Assembly (NCBI RefSeq): GCF_009826975.1
Contig: NZ_WUMO01000001.1
Location: 744,001-808,000 of the forward strand
From: Flavobacterium sp. HBTb2-11-1
GTDB lineage: Bacteria; Bacteroidota; Bacteroidia; Flavobacteriales; Flavobacteriaceae
DNA: 64,000 nucleotides
Reading direction: 5' to 3'
The notes under the pieces are model-generated. The model was not told the DNA's origin and did not search any database. It saw nothing but the letters and a program-made list of their open reading frames with translations. A program made the translations under genes and the position numbers. This document shows positions 17,733-31,352 of this stretch, one piece after another; position 1 is the first letter of the stretch, and each line of letters begins with the position of its first letter.

Positions 17733-18446
17733 TTAAAGGTTGATTTTTTCGAAGAAAGTATTCTTATAACTTTCGCTTATTGGAATTCTTTTATCGCTTA
17801 TTAACACTTTGTTTTTCTGAATTGATTTTACATGTTTGATATTAATAATATACGACCTGTGAATTCTCGCAAAACCTTTGTTTGAAAGCAAATTTTCTAG
17901 TTTTATTAAACTGATTAATGTCAGTGTAAATTTATTGTCTGTAGTGTAAATTTTGACATAATCTTTAAGGCCTTCAATAAAAAGAATATCGGCAAAATTC
18001 AATTTTACGTTTTCATATTCAGCTCTAACAAACATAAAATCCTGTTCAATTTCTGGCGTATTAGTGCTTTCTGTAAGTGCTGGAGTTGCCACAGGCTGTA
18101 AAACTTGCTGAGCACGAACTACCGCTTTTAAAAAACGATGAAACGGAATCGGTTTTACTAAATAATCGACCGCGCCAAGATTAAATCCCTCCACAGCATA
18201 ATCTGAATAGGCGGTCGTGAAAATAACTAGAGGTTTTTTCTCTATAGTATTTAAAAAGTCAATTCCAGAAAAATGGGGCATCTGAATATCCAGAAAAATC
18301 AAATCAACATTATTTTGATTGATAAATGAAACGGCATCGATAGCATTATTGAAAGTGCTGATCAGTTCAAGAGTATCTACTTTTTTGACAAAATCCTCTA
18401 ATAGTTCTACCGCTAAAGGTTCGTCATCAATAATTACACATTTCAT
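17733..18446 (-). CDS. LytTR family response regulator
   Basis: Response regulator of 237 aa if started at the ATG at 18446 (MKCVIIDDEP), the usual family start; an in-frame ATG at 18482 would add 12 residues. The receiver domain (about 1-120) shows the acidic pair D7/D8, phospho-acceptor D53 in IFLDIQMP and the lysine in DYLVKPIP. The C-terminal LytTR DNA-binding domain (about 138-236) contains FIEGLKDYVKIYT and RIHRSYIINIKHV. It pairs with the histidine kinase upstream, from which it is separated by a gap containing two inverted repeats. Target genes are unknown, though the envelope genes of the same locus are plausible. Confidence 0.93.
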   Translation of the reverse strand: MKCVIIDDEPLAVELLEDFVKKVDTLELISTFNNAIDAVSFINQNNVDLIFLDIQMPHFSGIDFLNTIEKKPLVIFTTAYSDYAVEGFNLGAVDYLVKPIPFHRFLKAVVRAQQVLQPVATPALTESTNTPEIEQDFMFVRAEYENVKLNFADILFIEGLKDYVKIYTTDNKFTLTLISLIKLENLLSNKGFARIHRSYIINIKHVKSIQKNKVLISDKRIPISESYKNTFFEKINL

Positions 18447-18496
18447 CTTTTCTGGATTAGTTTTTAAAATTTCATTTCGCATTCAAAAGTAGTTTG

Positions 18497-18540
18497 AAAC
18501 CAGTAAATTAAGTTTTAAAATTTTCATAAAATACTGGTTT
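18497..18540. repeat. 9-bp inverted repeat upstream of the LytTR gene
   Basis: AAACCAGTA at 18497-18505 and TACTGGTTT at 18532-18540, separated by 26 AT-rich bases, 51 bp or more before the regulator start. It could be an operator, possibly autoregulatory. A minus-strand TAATTTTG (18549-18556) lies next to it as a candidate -7 box. Confidence 0.4.
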
Positions 18541-18577
18541 TTACAAATCAAAATTATGTATTAACGGTTATCATTTT

Positions 18578-18609
18578 GTGAGTAAAAAATATTTTGATTT
18601 TTTGCTCAC
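18578..18609 (-). repeat. 13-bp imperfect inverted repeat after the kinase gene
   Basis: GTGAGTAAAAAAT (18578-18590) and ATTTTTTGCTCAC (18597-18609), one G-U-type mismatch, 6-nt loop. It lies 12 bp beyond the kinase stop on the minus strand. No T-tract follows, so it may stabilise the mRNA end or act as a weak terminator. Confidence 0.45.
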
Positions 18610-18621
18610 TGAAATCATTTT

Positions 18622-19737
18622 TTAATCTATTGCGGTTTTAATTTCATCTAATTTTAAATTCAAATGGACTCGGTAATAGTTATCATCTTGCGTAATGGTC
18701 AGTTCGTGTGCGTTTGGATAAAGAAGATCAAGACGGCTTTGAATGTTTACTAATCCAATTCCTGAATTTTCAGGATCTTTCACATAATTTTCGATTGTGT
18801 TTTCGATCCAAAAATCAAGATTGTAGTCTGTAATCAGAATTTTGATTTTTACGTGAGCCGCGCCTTTATAATCGGTTCCGTATTTAAAAGCATTTTCAAC
18901 AAATGAGATCAATAGTAAAGGCTCAATAAATTTGTTTTTAGTATCGCCATGCACATTGATCACAATGTCTTCAATATTATTTAATCGCAGTTTTTGCAAT
19001 TCGATATAGTTCTGAATATAATTGACCTCTTTTTCTAAAGCCACCGTTTTATTGTCTGTTTCATACAGCATATAGCGCATTAGTTCAGACAAGGTTACGA
19101 TGGCATCAGGGACCAAATCAGATTTTTTGTGTGCCAATGAATAAATACTGTTTAGCGAATTAAATAAAAAATGCGGATTGGTTTGTTTGCGCAAATAAAT
19201 TAATTCGGTATTTGTTCTATGAGTTTCAGCAATCAGTTTATTTTGCTGATTGTTATAAAATTCAGTTAATGTTCTAATAATTGCAGAAATTGTAATAATT
19301 AGAATGTAGAAAAAAGAAGGGGCAATCTTAAAAAAGAACGGCTGTCTCATTTCTATTCTGTGACGCATTCTGCCTCCTCTTGGAAAAAAATGCGGATCAC
19401 GAATAATGGTGTCAGCATGCATCATGTTTTCCGGCCTTAAATGTCTAAATTCAGGAATAAAATAATTTAATCGTATTACCATAAATAGCGCAATCAGACC
19501 AATGGCAAATGCGCCGTACAGCCAATATTTTTTTTGCAGCAAATAATTTGGAACCAAATAAAAATAGTTCAGATAAAACAAGAAAATCCCTGAAAGCCAT
19601 TGGGCATAAAAATCATTGTCGAGCTTAAACGGACTTTCATAAAACTGAATTAATGAAGTCAGAATAAAGAAAATCCAAATCATGAAATGGAATAATATTT
19701 TGTTATAGCCTGTATTTTTAATGGTATCGATCTGCAT
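18622..19737 (-). CDS. LytS-type sensor histidine kinase
   Basis: A 371-aa membrane histidine kinase. Four hydrophobic helices occur at about residues 14-33, 44-62, 72-93 and 138-155, with no large sensor domain, so the signal is probably sensed within or near the membrane or through partner proteins. The His_kinase box carries H189 in KQTNPHFLFNSLNSIYSL. The ATPase domain has the N box SFVENAFKYG and the G box SGIGLVNIQSRL. Its start codon directly abuts the stop of the DUF4907 gene, so translation is likely coupled. It pairs with the downstream LytTR regulator. Confidence 0.94.
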   Translation of the reverse strand: MQIDTIKNTGYNKILFHFMIWIFFILTSLIQFYESPFKLDNDFYAQWLSGIFLFYLNYFYLVPNYLLQKKYWLYGAFAIGLIALFMVIRLNYFIPEFRHLRPENMMHADTIIRDPHFFPRGGRMRHRIEMRQPFFFKIAPSFFYILIITISAIIRTLTEFYNNQQNKLIAETHRTNTELIYLRKQTNPHFLFNSLNSIYSLAHKKSDLVPDAIVTLSELMRYMLYETDNKTVALEKEVNYIQNYIELQKLRLNNIEDIVINVHGDTKNKFIEPLLLISFVENAFKYGTDYKGAAHVKIKILITDYNLDFWIENTIENYVKDPENSGIGLVNIQSRLDLLYPNAHELTITQDDNYYRVHLNLKLDEIKTAID

Positions 19738-20070
19738 TTATAATTTTATTTTTAATAAAATTAGTTCATTTTTGGTTACCGTTGGAGATAAGTTCTGTTT
19801 GAGTTTTTGCTTTACAAGCTCGGCAACTTTTAGAGCATCACTTTCTGTTTCAAAACTTTTAGTGTCACTTATTACGGGAATAATGGATTGTTTAATTAAA
19901 ACTTTTTCTTTATAGGCAATTGAATATCCCCATCCAGAATTTGTTTTAAAAGATGTGGCAGTTAAAGCTTCTTTTTTTGCACACGCAGCAAAAAGCAAAA
20001 GAACTGTAAAAACCATTAAATTCTTCTGGATATTACTCCAGAAGAATTGTTTAATATTAATTATCGTCAT
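19738..20070 (-). CDS. DUF4907 lipoprotein
   Basis: A 110-aa predicted lipoprotein: n-region lysines K7 and K16, a hydrophobic core and lipobox FAAC with C30. The mature part (about 80 residues) matches DUF4907 with GWGYSIAYKEKVLIKQSIIPVI and a C-terminal helix ALKVAELVKQKL. It overlaps the Kelch gene by 14 bp and its stop abuts the kinase start. I prefer the ATG at 20070 over the one at 20016, which would leave a signal lacking positive charge. A perfect 12-bp hairpin lies in its 5' coding part. Function is unknown; context suggests a periplasmic sensor component. Confidence 0.8.
   Translation of the reverse strand: MTIINIKQFFWSNIQKNLMVFTVLLLFAACAKKEALTATSFKTNSGWGYSIAYKEKVLIKQSIIPVISDTKSFETESDALKVAELVKQKLKQNLSPTVTKNELILLKIKL
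20019..20048 (-). promoter_or_regulatory. Perfect 12-bp hairpin in the DUF4907 leader coding region
   Basis: AATTCTTCTGGA (20019-20030) and TCCAGAAGAATT (20037-20048) with a 6-nt loop. On the mRNA the stem begins 8 nt after the Kelch stop codon and 22 nt inside the DUF4907 gene. It could tune translational coupling or protect the upstream message end; there is no T-tract. Confidence 0.5.
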
Positions 20071-21064
20071 CGCTTTGTTCGTCTAATGGCTTAAATTCCC
20101 AAGCATCATCAAAGTACGTAGAACCAACTCTTCCTAGCATATAGAATCCGCGATTATTTATTGAGAAACCAACAGCATCTGTTCGTGTAGCACCTTCCAT
20201 TGGAGTTCTTTCTGTCCATAAATCTGTTGACGGATTGTATTCCCAAACTGTTTTGATGTTTTCACCTCCTACAACATATCCTAGACCATTCATAGAAAAA
20301 CTTGAAGCATTAGAACGTACAATCGCATAATCGTCGTTGTAGCTGTAATCGTCATCAGTATCTTTATCAATATCACGTTTTCTTGTCCAAACATCTGTTG
20401 ATGGATCAAACTCCCAGAAATCTTCTTGATAAACACCATTATTTACACCAGTTACTAAATATGCTTTGTCTGCAATTGTAAATACAGTTGCATTACGTCT
20501 TTTGTTACCGCTAAAACCATTTACTAGAATCCAAGTATTGGCCTGATCATCGTATTGATAAAAATCTTTCAGATAATTCCCGTCATAGCCTGTTCCAAAA
20601 TACGCTTTACCACCAACCTGAAAACCTACAGCAGCATAACGTGCCGTTCCTGCAAAGTCTGTTTTTTGCGTCCAGCTGTTTGCAGTAGGGTCGTATTGAT
20701 AAAAGTCTTTCAGCTTGTTTGTTCCGTCATAACCAAGACCTACATAACCTTTTTCGTTTAATGCAAAACTAGAAGCAGAACTTCTTCCGATGCCACCAAA
20801 ATCAGCTTTCTGTTCCCAATAATCTCCATTTGAATTGTAAACCCAAAGATCTTTTAAATAAACGTCGCCAGTATAACCACCTACTACGTAAGCATAATCT
20901 CCGATAACAAAACTTGTAGCACTAGATCTTGCAGGGCCATCAAAGGCTGATTTTTTAATCCAGTTTCCTACCAAATCATCATCGTCATCATCATTGCTGC
21001 AGCTTATAAAAAAGAGGCTTGAAAAAAGCGCTGTGAATAAAATTCCTTTTTTTAGATTAATCAT
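20057..21064 (-). CDS. Kelch-repeat lipoprotein
   Basis: A 335-aa lipoprotein with lipobox FISC (C22) followed by an acidic stretch SNDDDDDD, which in Flavobacteria may act as a surface-export signal. The rest forms about six Kelch-type beta-propeller blades, each with a pattern such as YVVGGYTGDVYLKDLWVYN followed by a W-x-Q/E-K turn. It ends in an acidic tail. Kelch propellers bind proteins or sugars; no active site is recognisable. It lies 12 bp downstream of the DUF6268 barrel gene and overlaps the DUF4907 gene, so all are likely expressed together. Confidence 0.88.
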   Translation of the reverse strand: MINLKKGILFTALFSSLFFISCSNDDDDDDLVGNWIKKSAFDGPARSSATSFVIGDYAYVVGGYTGDVYLKDLWVYNSNGDYWEQKADFGGIGRSSASSFALNEKGYVGLGYDGTNKLKDFYQYDPTANSWTQKTDFAGTARYAAVGFQVGGKAYFGTGYDGNYLKDFYQYDDQANTWILVNGFSGNKRRNATVFTIADKAYLVTGVNNGVYQEDFWEFDPSTDVWTRKRDIDKDTDDDYSYNDDYAIVRSNASSFSMNGLGYVVGGENIKTVWEYNPSTDLWTERTPMEGATRTDAVGFSINNRGFYMLGRVGSTYFDDAWEFKPLDEQSDDDN

Positions 21065-21076
21065 AGTGTATTTAAT

Positions 21077-21919
21077 TTATTGTTTGTATTTGATCCCTAT
21101 TCCTAAAACATAACCGTTTCCGGTATTATAGTCGTAAACCTTATGGTCATTACTATCTAGTAAATTGTATTTTTTGTTGAAATCATAACCAGCTTTAAAA
21201 TTTAAAAACCAATTGCCGGCAACATTTCTTTCGTATTCTAAAGCCGAAGTCATTTGCGATAAAACAGCTTTTTCAGAATTGTTTCCTGTACTAGATGTTT
21301 TATCCAAATGATAAAAATTTCCATTAAAACTATTCGCAAGACTAAATTTGTTTCGATCATTATTAGAATAAGAAATCTTTGAGTCGGGGAATCCGATTTT
21401 AAAATCGGTTTTCTCATTCACTTTATAATCAAAAGCAACAATTGGTGTAATCTTGGGCGCTCCAAAAATTGATGTTCTGCCAGCTCCCGCAATTACACTC
21501 AGTTTTGAACTAATTTGCTGAATGATTTCTAAACTTCCTAAAACAGTAACGTCTGAAAAATCCAATTTGCTTTGAAAATTTGCCGTCGGAATAACAGAAA
21601 GTTTCCAATTTGTTCTTTCTGCTATTTCAGATGAATATTCAAATTTGTTTTGAACTTGGTTGAATTTGTCCTGATCCGCATAAAAATTATAAGGATTCAA
21701 TTCGTAATTCACCTTCAAATTAGAATATTCTAAAGTGTTCGCTATTTTGCTTTTTGCTCCTAATTTTTTCTGATAAAAAATAGCAAGGCCTGTTTCGCTA
21801 AAATTTATCTTTTCTGTTGGCTCGGTTCTAAAATTAAAAGCGGCGCCAAAATTTTCCTGAGCTTTTAAACCTAAAAATGAAATCAAAAAAAGAGAACAAA
21901 CTAAAAACCTTACTTTCAT
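21077..21919 (-). CDS. DUF6268-like outer-membrane beta-barrel protein
   Basis: A 280-aa secreted protein: signal peptide at about residues 1-20 (ending GLKAQ), then repeated amphipathic strands and a final strand GYVLGIGIKYKQ with an aromatic/positive outer-membrane-type C-terminus. The pattern matches small beta-barrels such as DUF6268. It is the first gene of the operon that continues through Kelch, DUF4907 and the kinase. The 231-bp upstream gap, shared with the divergent DUF4270 gene, must contain its promoter. Function unknown; the family name is a recognition by overall pattern, not by a motif. Confidence 0.75.
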   Translation of the reverse strand: MKVRFLVCSLFLISFLGLKAQENFGAAFNFRTEPTEKINFSETGLAIFYQKKLGAKSKIANTLEYSNLKVNYELNPYNFYADQDKFNQVQNKFEYSSEIAERTNWKLSVIPTANFQSKLDFSDVTVLGSLEIIQQISSKLSVIAGAGRTSIFGAPKITPIVAFDYKVNEKTDFKIGFPDSKISYSNNDRNKFSLANSFNGNFYHLDKTSSTGNNSEKAVLSQMTSALEYERNVAGNWFLNFKAGYDFNKKYNLLDSNDHKVYDYNTGNGYVLGIGIKYKQ

Positions 21920-22127
21920 TACTTATTTTATTGGCTCAAAATTAGACGGATGAAGTCCTTAAAAAAAAGAAGATATATATATGACGTGTTTTGATAGACA
22001 AAATCGCCGTTTTTAGGGTCGAATTAAATTTTGAGAATAGAATTCAGATTATAGATTGTTTTGTACAGTTTGTAGCCGTAAAAAGCGCAGTAGTATATGT
22101 TATAGTGTGTCGCCAAAGCGTGCAATT

Positions 22128-22135
22128 TATATTTG
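22128..22135 (+). promoter_or_regulatory. Candidate -7 box (TATATTTG) for the DUF4270 gene
   Basis: Exact TAnnTTTG match 15 bp before the ATG at 22151. No TTG at the usual -33 distance is visible. The leader would be very short. Confidence 0.4.
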
Positions 22136-22150
22136 CTCAAAAATTAAATT

Positions 22151-23479
22151 ATGCACAAGTTTATTTTGATACTGCTTTTGGTACTTAGCTTATTTTCGTG
22201 CGGTACGGATACAGATACTGGAGAATTTACTGTTGGGTCAGATTATTTGGCTTTAAGCAATAAAGTGATCATGATAGATACCGTTACGGTAGAAATGTCA
22301 ACCATCAATTTTGATTCGCTTGTAACTTCAAACATGAGTAGAATCTTGATAGGAAATTACAATGATCCTATTTTCGGAAAAGTAAAATCAGACAGTTATT
22401 TTCAGCTTTCAGGTACTAATTATGCTTTAAATAGTTCGGGTTCCGATACTGAATCGATAAATTATGTTTTCGATTCGATTTCTATGATTCTTAAATATGA
22501 TAAATATTATTATGGAGATACAACCAAAGTGCAAACGTTTGATATTCATCGCTTAATTCAGAAGGTGAAGCCTAATACTGACGACAGCAGTTTTTACAAT
22601 AATTCTACATTAAGTTATAGTCCCGAAAGCTTGGGAAAAATATCTTTTGTACCAAGGCCAACCGAAAAGGACTCTATAAATATTAAAATGAGCAATGAAT
22701 TTGGAGATGCTCTTTTTCAGAAAATAAAAAAAAGAGAAATTACAGATTTTGACAGCTTTACCGAATATTTGAAAGGGCTGGTTTTAGTTCCAGAAACCTC
22801 CAATTCTTCAAGCGTAATTGGATTTAGTGCGGGAAATAGCAAAGTAAGATTGTATTATTCAAAATATATGGGAGATTCAGATCAGGATTCTTTTTTTCTC
22901 GATTTTACGATTATAGATCATGCAAAGCAGTTTAATTCTATTTCTTTGAATAAAACGGGGACACTGCTGCAAAATCTTCCCGTCTCGAGCAGTAATTTAT
23001 CAAGTAACCTCACAAATAACCAAGGGTTTATTCAATCTGGAACTGGAGTAGCCTGCAGAGTTGAATTTCCTAATATTAAGCAGTTTAAAAATATTTCAAC
23101 TAATGGAGCTATTGTAAATGCTGAACTGATTTTGAAACCAGTAAATAATTCTTATTCTGAGAAATATCCATTGGCAGATTCGCTGGCTGTGTATGTGGGT
23201 GATAATTTAAATCGAATAAGCGGAACATTGGTAAATTCTGCTGGAAGCACTGTTTACGGAATATTGAATAAAAAAAGTGATGAGTTTAATGAAAATGTTG
23301 GTTATACCATTCCAATTGGGAATTTCCTTCAGAAAGAAATGCTCAAACAATCCGATTCAAGATCATCTCTCATCTTGACATTACCTGGAATTTCTAAATC
23401 TGTTGACCGCATTGTTTTGGGTAACCAAAAACATGCAAACAACAAAATTCAGCTGAAAATTTATTACATCTCTTACTAA
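22151..23479 (+). CDS. DUF4270 lipoprotein
   Basis: A 442-aa lipoprotein with lipobox LFSC (C17). It carries the DUF4270 opening (about residues 40-90: DTVTVEMSTINFDSL, then SRILIGNYNDPIFGKVKSDSYFQL). The rest is a long beta-rich protein with no catalytic motif I recognise. The family is common in Bacteroidota and uncharacterised. Its stop codon is immediately followed by the ATG of a beta-barrel gene, so the two products are probably made together and may form a surface lipoprotein-barrel pair. Confidence 0.88.
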   Translation: MHKFILILLLVLSLFSCGTDTDTGEFTVGSDYLALSNKVIMIDTVTVEMSTINFDSLVTSNMSRILIGNYNDPIFGKVKSDSYFQLSGTNYALNSSGSDTESINYVFDSISMILKYDKYYYGDTTKVQTFDIHRLIQKVKPNTDDSSFYNNSTLSYSPESLGKISFVPRPTEKDSINIKMSNEFGDALFQKIKKREITDFDSFTEYLKGLVLVPETSNSSSVIGFSAGNSKVRLYYSKYMGDSDQDSFFLDFTIIDHAKQFNSISLNKTGTLLQNLPVSSSNLSSNLTNNQGFIQSGTGVACRVEFPNIKQFKNISTNGAIVNAELILKPVNNSYSEKYPLADSLAVYVGDNLNRISGTLVNSAGSTVYGILNKKSDEFNENVGYTIPIGNFLQKEMLKQSDSRSSLILTLPGISKSVDRIVLGNQKHANNKIQLKIYYISY

Positions 23480-24715
23480 ATGAAAAATAGAATTGTTTTA
23501 TGGAGCTGCTTCTTTCTAATGTCGCTGACTTCATTTTCTCAAAGTATTTCAAGTTCTCCATATTCGCTTTACGGTGTTGGAAGTTTATATGATTCAGATT
23601 TTGGTTATCTGCCTTCCATAGGCGGTTCTGGAATTGCTTTGCCTTCAGATACTTTTATCAATAATCTAAATCCAGCTTCTTTAGGATTTATGTATCAGAA
23701 TCACTTTCTTTTTGATATTGGCGGAAAAGCTATCGCAACCACATATCAGAGTAGTAATCGTACAGAAAAGCGAAATAATTTTCAATTTTCTCATTTGGCT
23801 TTTGCTTTTCCGGTTTCTAAAAATTCTGGTTTTAGTTTAGCGCTTCGTCCATATTCTAGTTCTGTATTTAAAATTTCTAATTTAAAACTTCCAATTGCTG
23901 ACAGTCAGGAATATTACTATGTAACAGCACAAGGATCAGGAGGTTTAAACAATCTGGATTTTTCATACGGATATCGATTTGGAAAAAAATTGACGGTAGG
24001 GGCAACCGGAACAGTGCTTTTTGGAAATACGGTTGATGATCGCGCTTTTTTAATTTCAAATACAATTACTACGATACACAAAAAAACAGATTATAGAGGA
24101 GTTCGCGCAACTTTGGGTGCTCAATATAAAATAGATTCTACATTTACAATTGGAACTACAGTTAAAGTTCCAACAAGGATAAATGCTTCCAAAGTGCAAA
24201 CGGTAACAAGTATTGCAGATGAAGTAGAGACTTCTATAGAAACGGACAAAGCTACAGACGTAGATGATTACTATATGCCTTTAGAAATAGGTTTTGGAGC
24301 TAGTAAGCGATTTAAAAATAATCTGAATGTAACTTTAGATTACGAAAGGAGTTTATGGAAAGATACCAACCAGTCTGAGCTTTATGGAAAGTTTGTAAAT
24401 CAGGATCGTTTTGCTCTGGGGTTAACTTACAGTACCAAAAAGAATGTTAGAAGATATTGGGATAGAGTAGGATATGCAGCAGGTATAAACTTTGACAATG
24501 GTTATCTCGAAGTTGACAAACAGCGTGTTAACAGTGCTTCTATTTCTATTGGATTAAATCTGCCAATTGAAAATACGTTTTCATCACTCAATATTTCTTA
24601 TTCTTATGGACAGAAAGGGAGAATCGCAAATGATTTAATAAAAGAAAACTACCATAAAATATCACTCAATCTATCGTTAGACGGAATTTGGTTCGTCAAG
24701 CGAAAATTCGAATAA
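23480..24715 (+). CDS. Outer-membrane beta-barrel protein (OmpP1/FadL/PorV-like)
   Basis: A 411-aa protein with a signal peptide (about residues 1-20, ending TSFSQ). The mature start SPYSLYGVGSLYDSDFG, followed by NNLNPASLGF, resembles FadL-like and PorV-like barrels of Bacteroidota. Alternating strands run to the end. Its ATG follows the DUF4270 stop without a gap. PorV-like proteins can carry T9SS cargo to the attachment complex, but this protein could equally be a general porin. It ends 4 bp from the convergent murI stop. Confidence 0.72.
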   Translation: MKNRIVLWSCFFLMSLTSFSQSISSSPYSLYGVGSLYDSDFGYLPSIGGSGIALPSDTFINNLNPASLGFMYQNHFLFDIGGKAIATTYQSSNRTEKRNNFQFSHLAFAFPVSKNSGFSLALRPYSSSVFKISNLKLPIADSQEYYYVTAQGSGGLNNLDFSYGYRFGKKLTVGATGTVLFGNTVDDRAFLISNTITTIHKKTDYRGVRATLGAQYKIDSTFTIGTTVKVPTRINASKVQTVTSIADEVETSIETDKATDVDDYYMPLEIGFGASKRFKNNLNVTLDYERSLWKDTNQSELYGKFVNQDRFALGLTYSTKKNVRRYWDRVGYAAGINFDNGYLEVDKQRVNSASISIGLNLPIENTFSSLNISYSYGQKGRIANDLIKENYHKISLNLSLDGIWFVKRKFE

Positions 24716-24719
24716 TAAT

Positions 24720-25496
24720 CTAAAAGTCTTTTTTGATTACTGGATATTTATATTCTAAAATTGATTCTAAAACTTTAGGGTCAGAATTTACATAAAATAC
24801 TGGATCAATATCTGTACTTTCAGAAAATCCAACTTTATCTTTAAGCAGATTTTTAGTCTGGCGCGCAACAGCTTCTCCTGAATCTATTATTTTAATATGA
24901 TCTGGGAGAATTTTTTTTATCTGAGGAATCAGATAAGGGTAGTGGCTGCATCCTAAAACCAAGTAATCAATATTAGCTTCAATCATGGGCTGAAGATATG
25001 ATTCTAACAATTGAGTCATTTCTGGCGAATACAAATTGCCATCTTCAATAAGTTGTACAAGTCCATGCCCAACCTGCTCAATGATTTTTGTGTTATGAAA
25101 CATCTCAGCAGTTTTATTAAACAGCTCACTATTAAGAGTTCCTTTTGTAGCTAAAATTCCGATAACCTGAGTTTGAGAATTGTTGGCCGCTGGTTTGATA
25201 GCAGGTTCAATTCCGACAAACGGAACATCATATTCTGCGCGAAGTTCTACTATAGCATTTGTGGTTGCGGTATTGCAAGCAACAACAATTAGCTTGCAAT
25301 TATTCTCTAGTAAAAATTCTACATTTTTTTTGCTTAATGCAACAATTTCATCTTTGCTTCTTTGCCCATAAGGAGCATTTTTACTGTCAGCCAGATAAAT
25401 GGTTTTCTCATTTGGAAGAAGGTCATGAATGGCGCTCCAAATGGAAGTTCCACCAATGCCAGAATCAAAAACGCCTATAGGATTATTGTTTATCAT
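24720..25496 (-). CDS. murI: Glutamate racemase MurI
   Basis: A 258-aa cytoplasmic enzyme that makes D-glutamate for peptidoglycan. The two catalytic cysteines are C74 (VVACNTATTNA) and C183 (LGCSHYPYL), with D11 and S12 in FDSGIGG. Length is typical. The convergent beta-barrel gene ends only 4 bp away. A minus-strand TAAATTTG (25501-25508) ends 4 bp before the ATG, which would place the transcription start at or near the start codon. It lies downstream of the bamA-ompH operon but behind that operon's terminator. Confidence 0.96.
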   Translation of the reverse strand: MINNNPIGVFDSGIGGTSIWSAIHDLLPNEKTIYLADSKNAPYGQRSKDEIVALSKKNVEFLLENNCKLIVVACNTATTNAIVELRAEYDVPFVGIEPAIKPAANNSQTQVIGILATKGTLNSELFNKTAEMFHNTKIIEQVGHGLVQLIEDGNLYSPEMTQLLESYLQPMIEANIDYLVLGCSHYPYLIPQIKKILPDHIKIIDSGEAVARQTKNLLKDKVGFSESTDIDPVFYVNSDPKVLESILEYKYPVIKKDF

Positions 25497-25586
25497 AAAG
25501 CAAATTTAATATTTTTTAATAAAATTCGTTATTCTAAATTAAGCGAAATCTTGAAATAATACCAAAGATTAGGTTTAATTTTTTGT

Positions 25587-25621
25587 AAAAAAAAACTGCT
25601 CAAATTATATAAATTGAGCAG
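25587..25621 (-). terminator. Terminator of the DUF6089-uppS-bamA-ompH-ompH operon
   Basis: On the minus strand CTGCTCAA, an AT-rich loop, TTGAGCAG and then a long run of T. It begins 24 bp after the stop of the last OmpH gene. Confidence 0.88.
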
Positions 25622-25644
25622 CTTAATTATCGGAATTTAATTTC

Positions 25645-26148
25645 TTAGAATCCTAAATCTTTTTTAACATCAGCAGTGATGTTTGGACCATCAGCTAATA
25701 ATAAAGTAGAACCGTCTAAAACATATTGGAAACCTTTAGCTTTTCCAACTTTTTGGATAGAAGCTCTTACTTTTTCCATTAAAGGTTTTACGATATCTGT
25801 TTCTTTTTGTTGTAATTCTTTTTGAGCATTGTCTCTGTAATCAACAATTCTCTTTTGCATATCTTGAACTTCTTTAGAACGCTCACCGTTTACAGCATCT
25901 GTTACAGTTGCAGCTTCAGCTTCGTACTTTTTAATTTTCACTTGATATTCGTCAACCATTTTTTTGTATTCAGCATCATATGTACCACTTAATTTTTGCA
26001 GTTGATTTTGAGCATCTAGCATAGCAGGCATTTTCGACATGATCTCGCTTACATCAACATGAGCTACCTTCGCTTGTGCGTTCATTGTGTTACTTGCTCC
26101 TAAAATAAGAATTGCAGCAATTAGTAAAGTTTTGATTTGTTTCATCAT
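25645..26148 (-). CDS. OmpH/Skp family periplasmic chaperone
   Basis: A 167-aa Skp-like chaperone: signal peptide at about residues 1-24 (ending MNAQA), then KVAHVDVSEIMSKMPA, a long coiled coil (about 45-125) and the closing beta segment GFQYVLDGSTLLLADG. Skp trimers hold unfolded outer-membrane proteins during transit to the BAM machinery. It is the last gene of an operon with bamA and a longer OmpH paralogue 14 bp upstream. Length is typical for the family. Confidence 0.94.
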   Translation of the reverse strand: MMKQIKTLLIAAILILGASNTMNAQAKVAHVDVSEIMSKMPAMLDAQNQLQKLSGTYDAEYKKMVDEYQVKIKKYEAEAATVTDAVNGERSKEVQDMQKRIVDYRDNAQKELQQKETDIVKPLMEKVRASIQKVGKAKGFQYVLDGSTLLLADGPNITADVKKDLGF

Positions 26149-26162
26149 TTTTAAAATATTAA

Positions 26163-27194
26163 TTAATTATTGGTCGTATTTGTTTTTTGCGATTCGGCTT
26201 CTTTTGCTTTTTTAGCCGCTTCTCTTTCTTCTAAAATTTTCTTTCTTCTTTCTTCCAATTCCTTTTTACGCTGTTCGTACAGTAATTGTCTTTCCTCTGC
26301 TTTTGTCATTGCTGGCTGTTGAGCAGCAGGTGTTTCTCCAGTTGCTGTTGGCGTTGCAGTTTTAGCAGTTGAGTTTGTTTTGGCAGCATCTGCCGCTGAG
26401 GCAGGGACTGCTACTGGAGCTGTTCCAGAAACCGTGCCATTTTTTTTAGCTTCTCTTTCTTCTTGCAACGCTTTTCTTCTGTCGTCGTATTCTTTTCTCT
26501 TAGCTTCCTGCTCTAATTTTCTATCCTGAATTAGTTTTTCTCTGGCAGCTCTTTTCTCGTCAAGTGCTTTTTGGCGATCGGCCATTGCTGGATTTTCGTC
26601 AATAGCATTTTCCATATTTTCTTTAGCCTCTTGCTCCTTCAATTGCTTTTTGGTCAGCTGCTCACGTTTTTCAGTACGGTTTAAGATTCTTAAAACCTGA
26701 TCGCTGATGTCAAATCTTTTATTGCTGAAAAGCATAGTTAGATCGGATGATTTATCAAAAACAAAATCATAATTTTTTGCTTCGGCTATATCTTGTACGG
26801 CAGTAAAAACCTGATCTTGTATTGGCTTTGCCAAAGCCGCTTTTTGTCTCATTAGATTTCCATCAGAACCAAATTGCTTCTGCTGATAATCCATCATTTC
26901 CTGCTCAAGAAACTTAATTTCTGTTTCTCTTTCTTCTATTAATTCCTTTGTTAGTAAAGCTTTTTCTGTTTTTAAGCTTTCTTTCAAATTATTTATGTTT
27001 AATTTTTTGGCTTCAACTTCTTGTTTCCACTTTTGAGCTTTTTGCTCTAATTGTGATTTAGCTTCTTTATAATCGGAAACATTTTCTAAAATATATTCCA
27101 TGTCGATGTAGCCAATTCGAGTAGTCTTTCCTTGTGCCTGACTTGTATTTGCTACAATCAAGGCTAAAAATATAAATAAAAATTGTTTTCTCAT
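26163..27194 (-). CDS. OmpH family protein with long charged C-terminal extension
   Basis: A 343-aa paralogue of the next gene. Residues 1-20 are a signal peptide; the OmpH core (IGYIDMEYILENV ... YDFVFDKSSDLTMLF) spans about 24-165. The remaining 175 residues are very rich in Lys, Glu, Arg and Ala (for instance REKLIQDRKLEQEAKRKEYDDRRK), probably a long helix, broken by an Ala/Thr/Pro-rich linker around residues 250-290. The tail is atypical for Skp. It follows bamA by 42 bp and may serve as a BAM-associated chaperone or a peptidoglycan/envelope tether; the latter is speculation. Confidence 0.9.
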   Translation of the reverse strand: MRKQFLFIFLALIVANTSQAQGKTTRIGYIDMEYILENVSDYKEAKSQLEQKAQKWKQEVEAKKLNINNLKESLKTEKALLTKELIEERETEIKFLEQEMMDYQQKQFGSDGNLMRQKAALAKPIQDQVFTAVQDIAEAKNYDFVFDKSSDLTMLFSNKRFDISDQVLRILNRTEKREQLTKKQLKEQEAKENMENAIDENPAMADRQKALDEKRAAREKLIQDRKLEQEAKRKEYDDRRKALQEEREAKKNGTVSGTAPVAVPASAADAAKTNSTAKTATPTATGETPAAQQPAMTKAEERQLLYEQRKKELEERRKKILEEREAAKKAKEAESQKTNTTNN

Positions 27195-27236
27195 AACATA
27201 ACTTTATTTGATGATTTTTAACCAAACGTTATTTCA

Positions 27237-29906
27237 CTAAAATTGTTGTCCAATGATAAAGTGTGTTTCCCATCCATTCGCTTTTGTCTGTCCTGGAAGA
27301 GCGTCAAATCCATAACCAAAGTCAATACCCAATAAACCAAATGCAGGCATGAATACACGTAAACCAGCACCAGCAGAACGGCTTAAGTCAAATGGGTTGT
27401 AATCTTTAAATGTCGGATATGATGACCCTGCTTCTAAGAACGTTAAGGCAAAAATAGATGCCGAAGCTTTTAATGTAATTGGATAACGTAATTCCATAGA
27501 GAATTTGTTGTAAATCGTTGCTCCAATTGCATCACCATTTGCGTTTACAGGAGTCAATGAGTTGTTCGGATAACCTCTTAACTGAATGGTCTCTCTACCA
27601 TCCATTGAGTAGTTTGCCATACCATCTCCACCTAAGTAAAAACGCTCAAACGGAATTACACCTCTTTCTTGGTTATATGCTCCTAAGAAACCAAACTCAG
27701 TAAGGGTTCTCAATACTAATTTTCCATATACTTTAGTATACCAGTCTCCTCTAAATTTAACTTTATAGTACTCTAACCAATTGTATTTTTTCTGATCGAC
27801 TTTTGCTACATCTGTGTCAGCGCTTGCATAATCAGATCCAACGCTTACATATCCAGTTGTTCCGTTTATGGTTTCTGTTTTAACATAGTCGCCATTGTTA
27901 AGCGGTTTTCCGTCTATACCACTTCCAGATGTTCCTGTATATTGTGTTTTATATTCTTTTTGGTTTTGTAAATCACCATAATCAACTCCATTAAATAATG
28001 AATATGGAGGCGTAACTTTTGCTGTAATACTGAATTCAGAACCATATGTCGGGAATATTGGGTTTACCCCTTTATTGCTTCTTGAAAGTCCGATAGTATA
28101 CGCTAAGTTTCTTGATGCACCATTACCAAAAGTAAATAAACCAGTGTTATAATTGTTCAAATCATAGTGCTGATAACTTACGGATTGTGATAATACAAAG
28201 TAGTCATCTGGCACTGTTAATCTTTTTGCTAAACCAACTTGTACTGTAAAAATATTAAAACTTTTGCTTTTATCAACAGTTCTAGTGATGTAATTGTTAA
28301 GAAATTGCTTACTGTATGAAATCGATGAACTAAACTGTACCGGTTTTTTTCCTCCAAACCAAGGTTCTGAGAAAGATAAACTATAGGTTTGGAAGTAGGT
28401 GCTTCCTTGTAAACGAAGCGCTACTTTTTGTCCATCTCCCATTGGTAAAGGCTTATAAGCTTCTTTGTCGAATATTTTACGTGCCGAGAAGTTGTTGAAC
28501 GAAAGCCCTAAAGTCCCGATGAAACCTCCACCGCCATAACCTCCTTGAAGTTCGACTTGGCTAGATCCTTTTTCTACTACGTTGTATTCAATATCAACAG
28601 TTCCAGCACCAGCATCAACGTTTTTGAATTTAGGATCGATTGCCTCAGGATCAAAAAATCCTAATTGACCAATCTCACGAATCGTTCTAACTAATTGTTC
28701 TTTACTGTATTTCTCACCTGGTTTTGTTCTTAACTCACGGTAAATAACATGGTCATTTGTTTTGTCATTACCCACAACTGTAATTTTGTTGAAATAAGCG
28801 ATTGGACCTTCTGTTACTCTAATCTCAAAATCGATAGTGTCATTAACTGTTTTTACCTCTACAGCATTAATGTTCGAGAACAAATAACCATTGTTTTGGT
28901 ATAAGTTGGTAATGTCTTCTGCGTCTGGTTTTGTCTTATCGGCAATTCTTTTTTCAAGTAAAACTCCATTATAAGTTTCTCCTTTTTTGATTCCTAAATA
29001 GCGGCTTAAGAGCTGATCTGAATACACTGTATTTCCTAAGAATTTAATGTTTCCGAAATAATATTTGTTTCCTTCCTCTACATTAATCTTAATGGCAAGC
29101 GTATTTTTTTTCTTATTATATTGTACCGAATCGTAAATGATACGAGCGTCACGATATCCTTTTTCTTTATAGGCTGCGATTACTTTTTCTAAATCGGTTT
29201 TGTATTTCTCAGGAATAAATTTAGATGCTTTAAATACACGAATGAAATTTTTCTGCTTTGTGTCTTTCATTGCAGCTCTTAACTGATTGTCGGTAAGCTG
29301 TTTGTTTCCTGTGAAATCAATACTGCTGATTTTTACTTTGTCTCCTTTATCTATCCTGACAAGCATGTTTACTTGATGCCCGTTAATAGTATCTGGAGTA
29401 TTGGTGATAGTAACTTTTGTGTTATAAAATCCTTCTTTTTTGTATTTGTTTTCGATGTAATTTTTAGTGGTTGTAATTAAATTTTCATTGACAATTTTGT
29501 TCTTTGTCAGGTTGTTATCTTTAATTAAGCCTTCGACTTTACTTTTCTTAACACCAACAATTTTAACCTCGTTTAATTTAGGAAGCTCAACGATATCTAA
29601 ATCTAAATAGATACTGTCGTTTTCTACTTTATTAACGTAAAAAGCAATTTCATCAAAAAGGCCCAGTTTGCCTAATTTTTTAATTGCACTGCTGATTTCT
29701 TCTCCAGGAACAGTGATTTGCTGACCTTTTTGAAGCCCCGAAAAAGTAACAACAGTCTGTTCATTGAAACTTATTTTACCAACAACAGAAACTTTAGCTA
29801 GAATATATTTTTTCCCTTGATCAAAAGGAACTCTTTCTTGTGCTTTAATTTGTGAAAAACTACCCAAAAGTAAAAGGGTAAAGACTATTTGTATTTTTTT
29901 TTGCAA
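27237..29906 (-). CDS. bamA: Outer-membrane protein assembly factor BamA
   Basis: BamA inserts beta-barrels into the outer membrane. An N-terminal signal (MQKKIQIVFTLLLLGS, ending KAQ) is followed by about five POTRA domains (one visible at IKFLGNTVYSDQLLSRY) and the barrel with GGYGGGGFIGTLGLSFNN and the ending GWETHFIIGQQF. I place the start at the TTG at 29906 (889 aa), which gives a clean signal peptide and avoids overlap with uppS; a GTG lies 3 bp upstream. Longer in-frame starts would run deep into uppS. It forms an operon with DUF6089, uppS and two ompH genes. Confidence 0.93.
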   Translation of the reverse strand: MQKKIQIVFTLLLLGSFSQIKAQERVPFDQGKKYILAKVSVVGKISFNEQTVVTFSGLQKGQQITVPGEEISSAIKKLGKLGLFDEIAFYVNKVENDSIYLDLDIVELPKLNEVKIVGVKKSKVEGLIKDNNLTKNKIVNENLITTTKNYIENKYKKEGFYNTKVTITNTPDTINGHQVNMLVRIDKGDKVKISSIDFTGNKQLTDNQLRAAMKDTKQKNFIRVFKASKFIPEKYKTDLEKVIAAYKEKGYRDARIIYDSVQYNKKKNTLAIKINVEEGNKYYFGNIKFLGNTVYSDQLLSRYLGIKKGETYNGVLLEKRIADKTKPDAEDITNLYQNNGYLFSNINAVEVKTVNDTIDFEIRVTEGPIAYFNKITVVGNDKTNDHVIYRELRTKPGEKYSKEQLVRTIREIGQLGFFDPEAIDPKFKNVDAGAGTVDIEYNVVEKGSSQVELQGGYGGGGFIGTLGLSFNNFSARKIFDKEAYKPLPMGDGQKVALRLQGSTYFQTYSLSFSEPWFGGKKPVQFSSSISYSKQFLNNYITRTVDKSKSFNIFTVQVGLAKRLTVPDDYFVLSQSVSYQHYDLNNYNTGLFTFGNGASRNLAYTIGLSRSNKGVNPIFPTYGSEFSITAKVTPPYSLFNGVDYGDLQNQKEYKTQYTGTSGSGIDGKPLNNGDYVKTETINGTTGYVSVGSDYASADTDVAKVDQKKYNWLEYYKVKFRGDWYTKVYGKLVLRTLTEFGFLGAYNQERGVIPFERFYLGGDGMANYSMDGRETIQLRGYPNNSLTPVNANGDAIGATIYNKFSMELRYPITLKASASIFALTFLEAGSSYPTFKDYNPFDLSRSAGAGLRVFMPAFGLLGIDFGYGFDALPGQTKANGWETHFIIGQQF

Positions 29907-29916
29907 CACTAAAAAA

Positions 29917-30657
29917 TTATTTAATTTGTTCACTGGTTTTTCCAAATCTACGTTCTCTTTTTTGATAACTAATAATAGCCTCATATAAATCTTGGTCTTT
30001 AAAGTCTGGCCACAAGACATTAGTAAAATACAATTCTGCATAGGCAATCTGCCATAACAAAAAATTACTTATTCTATGTTCTCCACTTGTTCGTATTAAT
30101 AAATCTACGTCAGGTAAATTTTGCGTGTAAAGATGCTCATTTATAATTGAATCGTCAATAGTGTCTATTGAAATTATATTATTTTTAACTTTATCACTAA
30201 TTGCTTTTACAGCATTTACCAGTTCCTCTCTGGAGCCATAACTTAAAGCGAGGGTAAGGGTTAAACGAGTATTATTTTTAGTTTTTTCCATAACATCCAA
30301 AAGTTCTTTTTGGGCTGTTTTTGGTAATTTGTCAAGATTTCCAATTGCATTAAGTCTGATATTGTTTTCCTGAAGGGTAACAAGCTCTTTCTTTAATGAA
30401 TTGATCAATATTTTCATTAATGCCTGAACCTCCAATTTAGGACGATTCCAATTTTCTGTTGAAAAAGCATATAGGGTTAAATATTCAATTCCAAGTTTGG
30501 CTGAGGTTTTGATGATTTCTTTTACAGATTTTGTTCCATTTTCATGGCCAAACGCGCGTAAATAGCCTTGTTGTTTTGCCCAGCGTCCGTTGCCGTCCAT
30601 GATAATGGCAAGGTGTTTAGGTAAGTTTGTGTGATCTATTGATTCTGTTAAATTCAT
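29917..30657 (-). CDS. uppS: Isoprenyl transferase (undecaprenyl diphosphate synthase family)
   Basis: A 246-aa cis-prenyltransferase making the C55 lipid carrier for cell-wall and surface polysaccharide. The signature AIIMDGNGRWAKQQG carries the catalytic D21, and the C-terminal DVDLLIRTSGEHRISNFLLWQ is diagnostic. I choose the ATG at 30657 over one at 30678, because it begins right after the DUF6089 stop and matches the family's usual length. The gene continues the envelope operon with bamA 10 bp downstream. Confidence 0.96.
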   Translation of the reverse strand: MNLTESIDHTNLPKHLAIIMDGNGRWAKQQGYLRAFGHENGTKSVKEIIKTSAKLGIEYLTLYAFSTENWNRPKLEVQALMKILINSLKKELVTLQENNIRLNAIGNLDKLPKTAQKELLDVMEKTKNNTRLTLTLALSYGSREELVNAVKAISDKVKNNIISIDTIDDSIINEHLYTQNLPDVDLLIRTSGEHRISNFLLWQIAYAELYFTNVLWPDFKDQDLYEAIISYQKRERRFGKTSEQIK

Positions 30658-30659
30658 TT

Positions 30660-31352
30660 TTAGTATGCGCAATAGCATGGTTTTTTTCCAAAGGTATACG
30701 TTAAAGTGACACCTGAAAAAACATACCAGTCATTATTATTTAAATTTCCAAATTTCATAATATTTGGATTACTTGTATTAGGATTGCTTCCGTCAATATT
30801 ATCAGTAAAAGTATAACGCGCTCCGACTTCGGCGGCCAAAACAAAACGTGGCGATATATTTGATTTTATACCTAATATAATAGGTATGGCTATAGAGCTT
30901 TGATTTTTTAGTTCGTATACTGTATTTGGGCTTGTAGTGTATCGGTATAAGTTGCTAAAGAAAAAGTAATTTAACCCTGTAAAAACATAAGGCGTTATTT
31001 TTGTATGATAATCGTGGAGATTAAAATCGAAAAAATTGAACTCTAATCCTGCAGATAGCTCTTTAATGTCATTGTCAAAACGATAGCCCCTCTGATTTCT
31101 TCCTGTTTCATCAGATTTAAAATCATTTCCGGTAATATTTGATTGTGTGTAAGAAAATCTCCAAGAGTGCCTCGGACTTCTATTCCATTTGTAAAGAATA
31201 CCAAAAGCTGGTTTTTCAGGTGAGATGTAGGTTGTTTTTCCAACATCGCCTATAAAGTTACTTCCACCAAAAAAAACACCAATCTCGTTTATTTGAGCAT
31301 TTAGTGTAATAAGAGGGAAAAAACATAACAATAAATTAAAAATTTTCTTCAT
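30660..31352 (-). CDS. DUF6089 family outer-membrane protein
   Basis: A 230-aa protein with a signal peptide (about residues 1-19, ending LNAQ). The opening INEIGVFFGGSNFIGDVG and the stretch YKWNRSPRHSWRFSYTQ identify DUF6089, a small beta-barrel family found next to uppS and bamA in many Bacteroidota. Alternating strands follow up to the Cys-containing end KPCYCAY. As first gene of the operon it is directly downstream of a well-formed promoter. Function is unknown; conserved linkage suggests a role in outer-membrane biogenesis. Confidence 0.88.
   Translation of the reverse strand: MKKIFNLLLCFFPLITLNAQINEIGVFFGGSNFIGDVGKTTYISPEKPAFGILYKWNRSPRHSWRFSYTQSNITGNDFKSDETGRNQRGYRFDNDIKELSAGLEFNFFDFNLHDYHTKITPYVFTGLNYFFFSNLYRYTTSPNTVYELKNQSSIAIPIILGIKSNISPRFVLAAEVGARYTFTDNIDGSNPNTSNPNIMKFGNLNNNDWYVFSGVTLTYTFGKKPCYCAY

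Follow-up and report, generated by a model that had tools for sequence, protein, structure and literature searches.

The organisation and probable role of a conserved envelope locus were analysed in a stretch of 64,000 nucleotides from Flavobacterium sp. HBTb2-11-1 (contig NZ_WUMO01000001.1, positions 744,001 to 808,000), referred to here as the window. One operon of the locus encodes a DUF6268 barrel, a Kelch lipoprotein, a DUF4907 protein, a LytS-type histidine kinase and a LytTR response regulator. A preliminary description had treated these as a five-gene unit; their order does recur, but this unit is too short. The conserved unit spans the divergent promoter region as far as bamH2-bamG2 (22151-24715), and these two genes and the candidate operators between the operons had been missed. 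BamG2 and BamH2 are second copies of BamG and BamH, the essential barrel and extracellular subunits by which the beta-barrel assembly machinery (BAM) of Bacteroidota is distinguished. Sequence comparison established the gene content, the conservation and the operator geometry of the locus, which probably encodes an alternative module of BAM accessory parts that can be induced, with BamG2, BamH2 and the Kelch surface lipoprotein switched by their own two-component pair.

The five open reading frames of the first operon lie on the reverse strand, and their families were confirmed by profile matches. In the direction of transcription they encode the DUF6268 outer-membrane barrel, an optional member (21077..21919, 53.8 bits against a cut-off of 22.8), the Kelch beta-propeller lipoprotein (20057..21064, Kelch_1, 96.9 bits), the small, predicted periplasmic DUF4907 protein (19738..20070, 84 bits, cut-off 25, lipobox C-AKKE), the kinase (18622..19737, His_kinase PF06580, 84.7 bits) and the regulator (17733..18446, 237 residues, Response_reg 76.2 and LytTR 68 bits). 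The spacings are 12 bp, an overlap of 14 bp, 0 bp and 175 bp, the last measured to position 18446, which is the preferred regulator start because the aligned relatives begin at MKCxIIDDEP; these values agree with those reported earlier. The kinase and regulator are adjacent and form a LytS/LytTR pair. As had been proposed, profile and alignment gave the kinase four hydrophobic membrane segments at its N-terminus and no separate sensor domain. Its third and fourth membrane segments are joined by a long loop (window 19300-19480), rich in His, Met and Arg and strongly variable among relatives, which is a possible sensing site.

The conservation of the locus was assessed in 80 loci around DUF4907 matches, obtained from searches of the genus, the family and the phylum. 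The Kelch gene was adjacent to DUF4907 in all 80, and a DUF4270 gene (the family of BamH2) was present in 75, a BamG homologue in 73, the regulator in 72, the kinase in 70 and DUF6268 in 41; DUF4270 and the BamG homologue thus belong to the locus more regularly than DUF6268 does. In 66 loci the canonical divergent layout was complete, and the gene order recurs in most of the 80, in genera across Flavobacteriaceae and beyond, so it is not a chance arrangement. The preliminary description had named DUF4907 and Kelch genes occurring mostly apart from the kinase pair as contrary to its view, and this pattern was not observed. Since the DUF4907 alignment was too divergent to serve as a query, named genomes were scanned with the Kelch protein. 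The best 80 of at least 543 matches, a set biased to close Kelch relatives, contained BamH2 in 79 loci (the single exception was a 3.8-kb contig), BamG in 76, DUF4907 in 66 and both kinase and regulator in 67, and reached Cytophagales, Bacteroidales, Chlorobiota and Ignavibacteria. From these counts and those around DUF4907, Kelch and BamH2 are the most constant pair.

The same association was observed at the genome level. Within the genus, at least two DUF4270 matches were present in 52 of 54 genomes with DUF4907 and in 3 of 146 without it (Fisher p 9e-42), and within the family a second DUF4270 was present in 33/40 and 3/261 genomes respectively (Fisher p 1e-33), both p values ignoring kinship. 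The genome scan undercounts DUF4270, because all seven family genomes with DUF4907 and a single listed DUF4270 carry a DUF4270 gene in the locus. The three family exceptions of the other kind, with a second DUF4270 and DUF4907 absent, all have Kelch-kinase-regulator beside bamH2-bamG2.

The predicted topology of the envelope proteins bears on the earlier proposal that the barrel, the Kelch propeller and DUF4907 form a sensing arm that hands a signal to the kinase; on this view the main targets of the regulator would lie elsewhere. The head-to-tail packing of Kelch, DUF4907 and kinase and the predicted periplasmic, membrane-anchored position of DUF4907 agree with such an arm. The Kelch protein, with a mean column identity of 55%, does not suit a periplasmic relay: it carries the lipoprotein export signal CSNDDDDDD and is predicted on the outer surface. 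A surface-export signal was scored where two or more of the six residues that follow the lipid cysteine are acidic (a rule taken from PMC12578637); it was present in 63 of 72 Kelch homologues with a lipobox, and likewise in BamH2 (CGTDTDTGE) and 53 of its 71 homologues. DUF6268, proposed as an integral sensing part, is absent from about half of the loci, and a far stronger match of 321 bits lies elsewhere in the genome (C24:50149-51015), so the barrel encoded here belongs to a general family, of which it is a divergent representative; it was rejected as a core member. An input from DUF4907 to the kinase is possible from its anchored position and its place next to the kinase gene, but DUF4907 is absent from several loci that retain the kinase. 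On these grounds the sensing arm is rather unlikely. Overall, the predicted location is outside the cell for the Kelch protein and BamH2, the outer membrane for BamG2 and DUF6268, the periplasm for DUF4907 and the inner membrane for the kinase.

DUF4907 itself, which the acidic-residue rule does not place at the surface, was scored with a lipobox in 27 of 80 sequences, often followed by basic residues; the others have mostly an N-terminal membrane helix, which takes the place of the lipobox in most relatives outside the genus. Its structure model has a beta3-alpha2 arrangement (predicted local distance difference test, pLDDT, 87.6) and gave no PDB match at E 0.001, so the fold offers no function. 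At two loci (L072 and L090), DUF4907 stands beside other Kelch proteins with Bam genes and kinase absent near by, perhaps a second type of Kelch-DUF4907 pair.

The second operon, on the forward strand, consists of bamH2 (22151..23479), for a DUF4270 predicted surface lipoprotein, and bamG2 (23480..24715), for a FadL-type outer-membrane barrel. BamG2 belongs to the BamG family, with an NCBIfam BamG score of 410.8 bits against a cut-off of 250, and its profile matched solved BamG chains (9hjm_F 9e-81, 9hiv_F 1e-79, 9n2d_B 3e-66) ahead of TbuX/TodX among solved structures. BamH2 carries the Pfam DUF4270 domain (103 bits, cut-off 27). A search of PDB sequences with the BamH2 profile found nothing relevant, and the likeness to BamH surfaced in the fold comparison alone: among PDB structures the BamH2 model (pLDDT 85.8) came closest to the BamH chains from F. 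johnsoniae (9n2d_C, 1e-21), B. thetaiotaomicron (9his_G) and P. gingivalis (9hjm_G), with template modelling scores of 0.62-0.65 by query length, which indicates a BamH fold. Elsewhere in the genome, each of the two families has exactly one more match, namely the canonical BamG on contig C1 (463 bits) and the canonical BamH, an open frame of 552 residues on C27 compared with 442 residues for BamH2. The score of BamH2 with the F. johnsoniae BamH equivalog model was 38.1 bits, under the cut-off of 420, so it is a paralogue and not BamH itself. In a tree of 52 proteins, locus-linked BamG2 sequences from several families and orders and canonical BamG fell on opposite sides of a branch with support of 92/96; the BamG/BamG2 duplication therefore looks old, the branch being moderately supported and some tree rows long.

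F. johnsoniae has been reported to carry BamG/BamH together with BamG2/BamH2 (PMC12611786), and both BAM papers already name the second pair as homologues of the first (PMC12611786; PMC12578637). As the present genome also holds two of each, the window pair was read as bamH2-bamG2. F. johnsoniae was not among the named loci of the Kelch scan, and orthology to its pair is therefore read from copy number, length and genus.

Since BamG is a member of the FadL family (PMC12611786) and the Kelch protein weakly resembles NanM/YjhT (about 49 bits), BamG2-BamH2 could instead be no BAM subunits but a FadL-like transporter and surface lipoprotein that act with a Kelch sugar epimerase of the NanM type, with the transported compound as inducer. 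This explanation is distinctly improbable: BamG2 exceeds the BamG cut-off by a wide margin and fits solved BamG chains much better than TodX/TbuX, BamH2 has the modelled shape of BamH, and the Kelch score is well short of the cut-offs for NanM and YjhT (256 and 416) and so outside that family.

The region between the two operons was analysed for regulatory sites. Its alignment within the genus revealed conserved blocks and -7 boxes. A de novo motif from 45 regions outside the genus consisted of two repeats with a period of 21 bp (log-likelihood 460, compared with 102-107 for refitted shuffles); the repeat consensus is TMTACSAA, with LytTR-type spacing, and the repeats form two inverted arrays of three, one for each promoter. 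When the two-repeat matrix was applied to the genus, which was absent from its training, its peaks fell at almost the same place in most loci. In the window, candidate operator array 1 (21974..22023, forward strand) faces DUF6268-Kelch and candidate array 2 (22048..22097, reverse strand) faces bamH2, each with three direct repeats of 21-bp period. At a fixed distance from them lie the -7 box TAATTTTG of the five-gene operon (21937..21944, reverse strand) and the -7 box TATATTTG of bamH2-bamG2 (22128..22135, forward strand), the latter with no TTTG at -33.

A three-repeat version of the matrix (50 bp) found at least one array in 71 of 73 regions and both inverted arrays in 66. The distance from the array edge to TAnnTTTG was 29 bp in 57 of the 60 regions with a box found on the Kelch side, and 29-30 bp in 39/39 on the bamH2 side. 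The offset between the two arrays was mostly 63-65 or 74 bp, values approximately one helical turn apart. TTTG at -33 was seen in only 2/39 promoters on the bamH2 side and 4/59 on the Kelch side, which fits activator-dependent promoters. In Cytophagales with a changed gene order (bamG2 divergent from bamH2-Kelch), the arrays stay with the promoter. This emerged from a held-out test of a 50-bp matrix refined on Flavobacteriaceae only: of 23 loci from other groups, 16, including these Cytophagales, had their best match inside the divergent gap, which makes up 2-4% of each locus. The two-repeat seed of this refined matrix had seen a few DUF4907 loci of other groups, not these records by name.

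Genome-wide scans of seven members of the genus gave their strongest sites at this locus. In the window genome, where 150 of 6069 candidates were scored, array 1 (31.4 bits, E 1.1e-6) and array 2 (24.7 bits) ranked first and second and were the only clear sites, other sites having 18.7 bits and below with E 0.013 and above. This also counts against a sensing arm whose regulator acts mainly elsewhere. No comparable array was present in the canonical bamG and bamH neighbourhoods, with best scores of 3.0 and 7.1. A second three-repeat array of 22.9 bits was seen at L236:15315, beside a further LytTR regulator in genome G120, and perhaps belongs to a related system.

LytTR regulators bind direct repeats of 9 bp, mostly 12 bp apart, upstream of promoters, and autoactivation has often been proposed for them (PMC6193735). 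The two arrays have this form, being direct repeats with a period of about 21 bp upstream of the promoters, and the regulator of the locus presumably binds both. Array and pair go together, with array scores above 17 in 64 of 67 loci with the kinase pair and 6 of 13 without it, many of the 67 being Flavobacterium and overlapping the training genus. Although the assignment of this regulator to the arrays is deduced and some array-bearing loci have no kinase next door, that association, the upstream position and the missing -33 box, which suit an activator, make it barely credible that the arrays are repressor sites or are bound by another LytTR regulator, with the neighbouring pair a mere passenger.

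For the inducible BAM module, the following mechanism is proposed. An envelope signal would lead the kinase to phosphorylate the LytTR regulator, which would then bind both arrays and recruit RNA polymerase to both promoters. The output of BamG2/BamH2, the Kelch lipoprotein and the kinase and regulator themselves would rise, giving positive feedback. BamG2-BamH2 would dock on BamA, replacing or standing beside BamG-BamH, and the Kelch propeller, once at the surface, would be a partner of the canopy or a client and may contact BAM. In this way the module may assemble one particular group of outer-membrane or surface proteins. The likeliest co-sensor or brake would be DUF4907, with its predicted periplasmic anchor and its gene beside that of the kinase. 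A wider reading, in which an essential machine of Bacteroidota and relatives is switchable and a two-component system swaps a canopy (BamG2-BamH2 with Kelch) onto BamA and so changes the proteins assembled, is put forward tentatively.

Published results agree with a conditional module. In F. johnsoniae, BamG and BamH are essential, and BamG2/BamH2 show no appreciable expression in rich medium and are deletable (PMC12611786); in B. thetaiotaomicron, BamG2/BamH2 were undetected by proteomics (PMC12578637). The silence in rich medium would be explained if both operons need dedicated two-component activation. Other observations weigh against the proposed module. In B. thetaiotaomicron, the bamH bamH2 double deletion behaved like the bamH deletion under detergent (PMC12578637), so in that species BamH2 is no simple backup of BamH. 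Outside Flavobacteriaceae, the kinase pair is absent from the surroundings of some loci; of the loci that lack it near by (for example L071, L076, L077 and L080), many still hold BamH2 and Kelch. Several Bacteroidales loci, some with the kinase pair, show no array with the refined 50-bp matrix.

In E. coli, sigma-E and Cpx respond to envelope signals by inducing outer-membrane assembly factors. The logic proposed here is the same with different proteins; here the regulon is a single locus as far as seen, alternative subunits and not the main machine would be induced, and sensing of assembly stress is not implied. The described Bacteroidota BAM (PMC12611786; PMC12578637) contains the same families, the barrel BamG2 and the surface lipoprotein BamH2, whereas here these second copies, silent or undetected in the published conditions, are grouped with Kelch, DUF4907, a two-component pair and dedicated candidate operators. 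In a word search, neither Kelch nor a two-component system turned up in the main text of either paper, and their figures may show part of the locus. LytTR systems (PMC6193735) share the regulator type, direct repeats with mostly 12-bp spacing and a proposed positive autoregulation; they differ in that here each array has three repeats, two inverted arrays serve divergent operons, the candidate targets concern outer-membrane assembly and a true histidine kinase stands in place of the membrane inhibitor of LytTR regulatory systems.

In line with the preliminary description, the genes form a single envelope locus that is conserved and includes a LytS/LytTR pair, and the open-access literature gave no published function for it. 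That literature yielded no paper on DUF4907, and the single paper found for DUF6268 was, judged from its title and abstract, not relevant. The one paper found for DUF4270 was an iron study that lists BT1785-86 at 3.6-fold, which was not significant (p 0.437). An F. johnsoniae LytTR/kinase pair mutated in parallel (FJOH_RS09515/09520, PMC10197871) was not used, as its locus-tag numbering is off the bamA neighbourhood. For the silent BamG2-BamH2, the locus suggests a regulator, a partner (Kelch) and defined operators, all of them candidates, and what turns the pair on and what it assembles become testable questions. Within Flavobacterium, presence of the DUF4907 locus goes with a larger genome (median 5.3 versus 3.3 Mb), which would fit a role in handling a richer surface proteome, as a correlation only and uncorrected for kinship.

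Directly after bamG2, the window has murI, two skp genes, bamA, uppS and a PorG-like barrel (24720-31352). This placement of bamG2-bamH2 in the bamA neighbourhood was seen within Flavobacterium, and the flanking gene was different in the loci read outside the genus. In the loci compared, the downstream genes for a hexapeptide protein and PorP/SprF were kept only inside the genus. The closest named relative of the window Kelch protein, among the best 80 matches, is that of F. tistrianum, with 99% identity.

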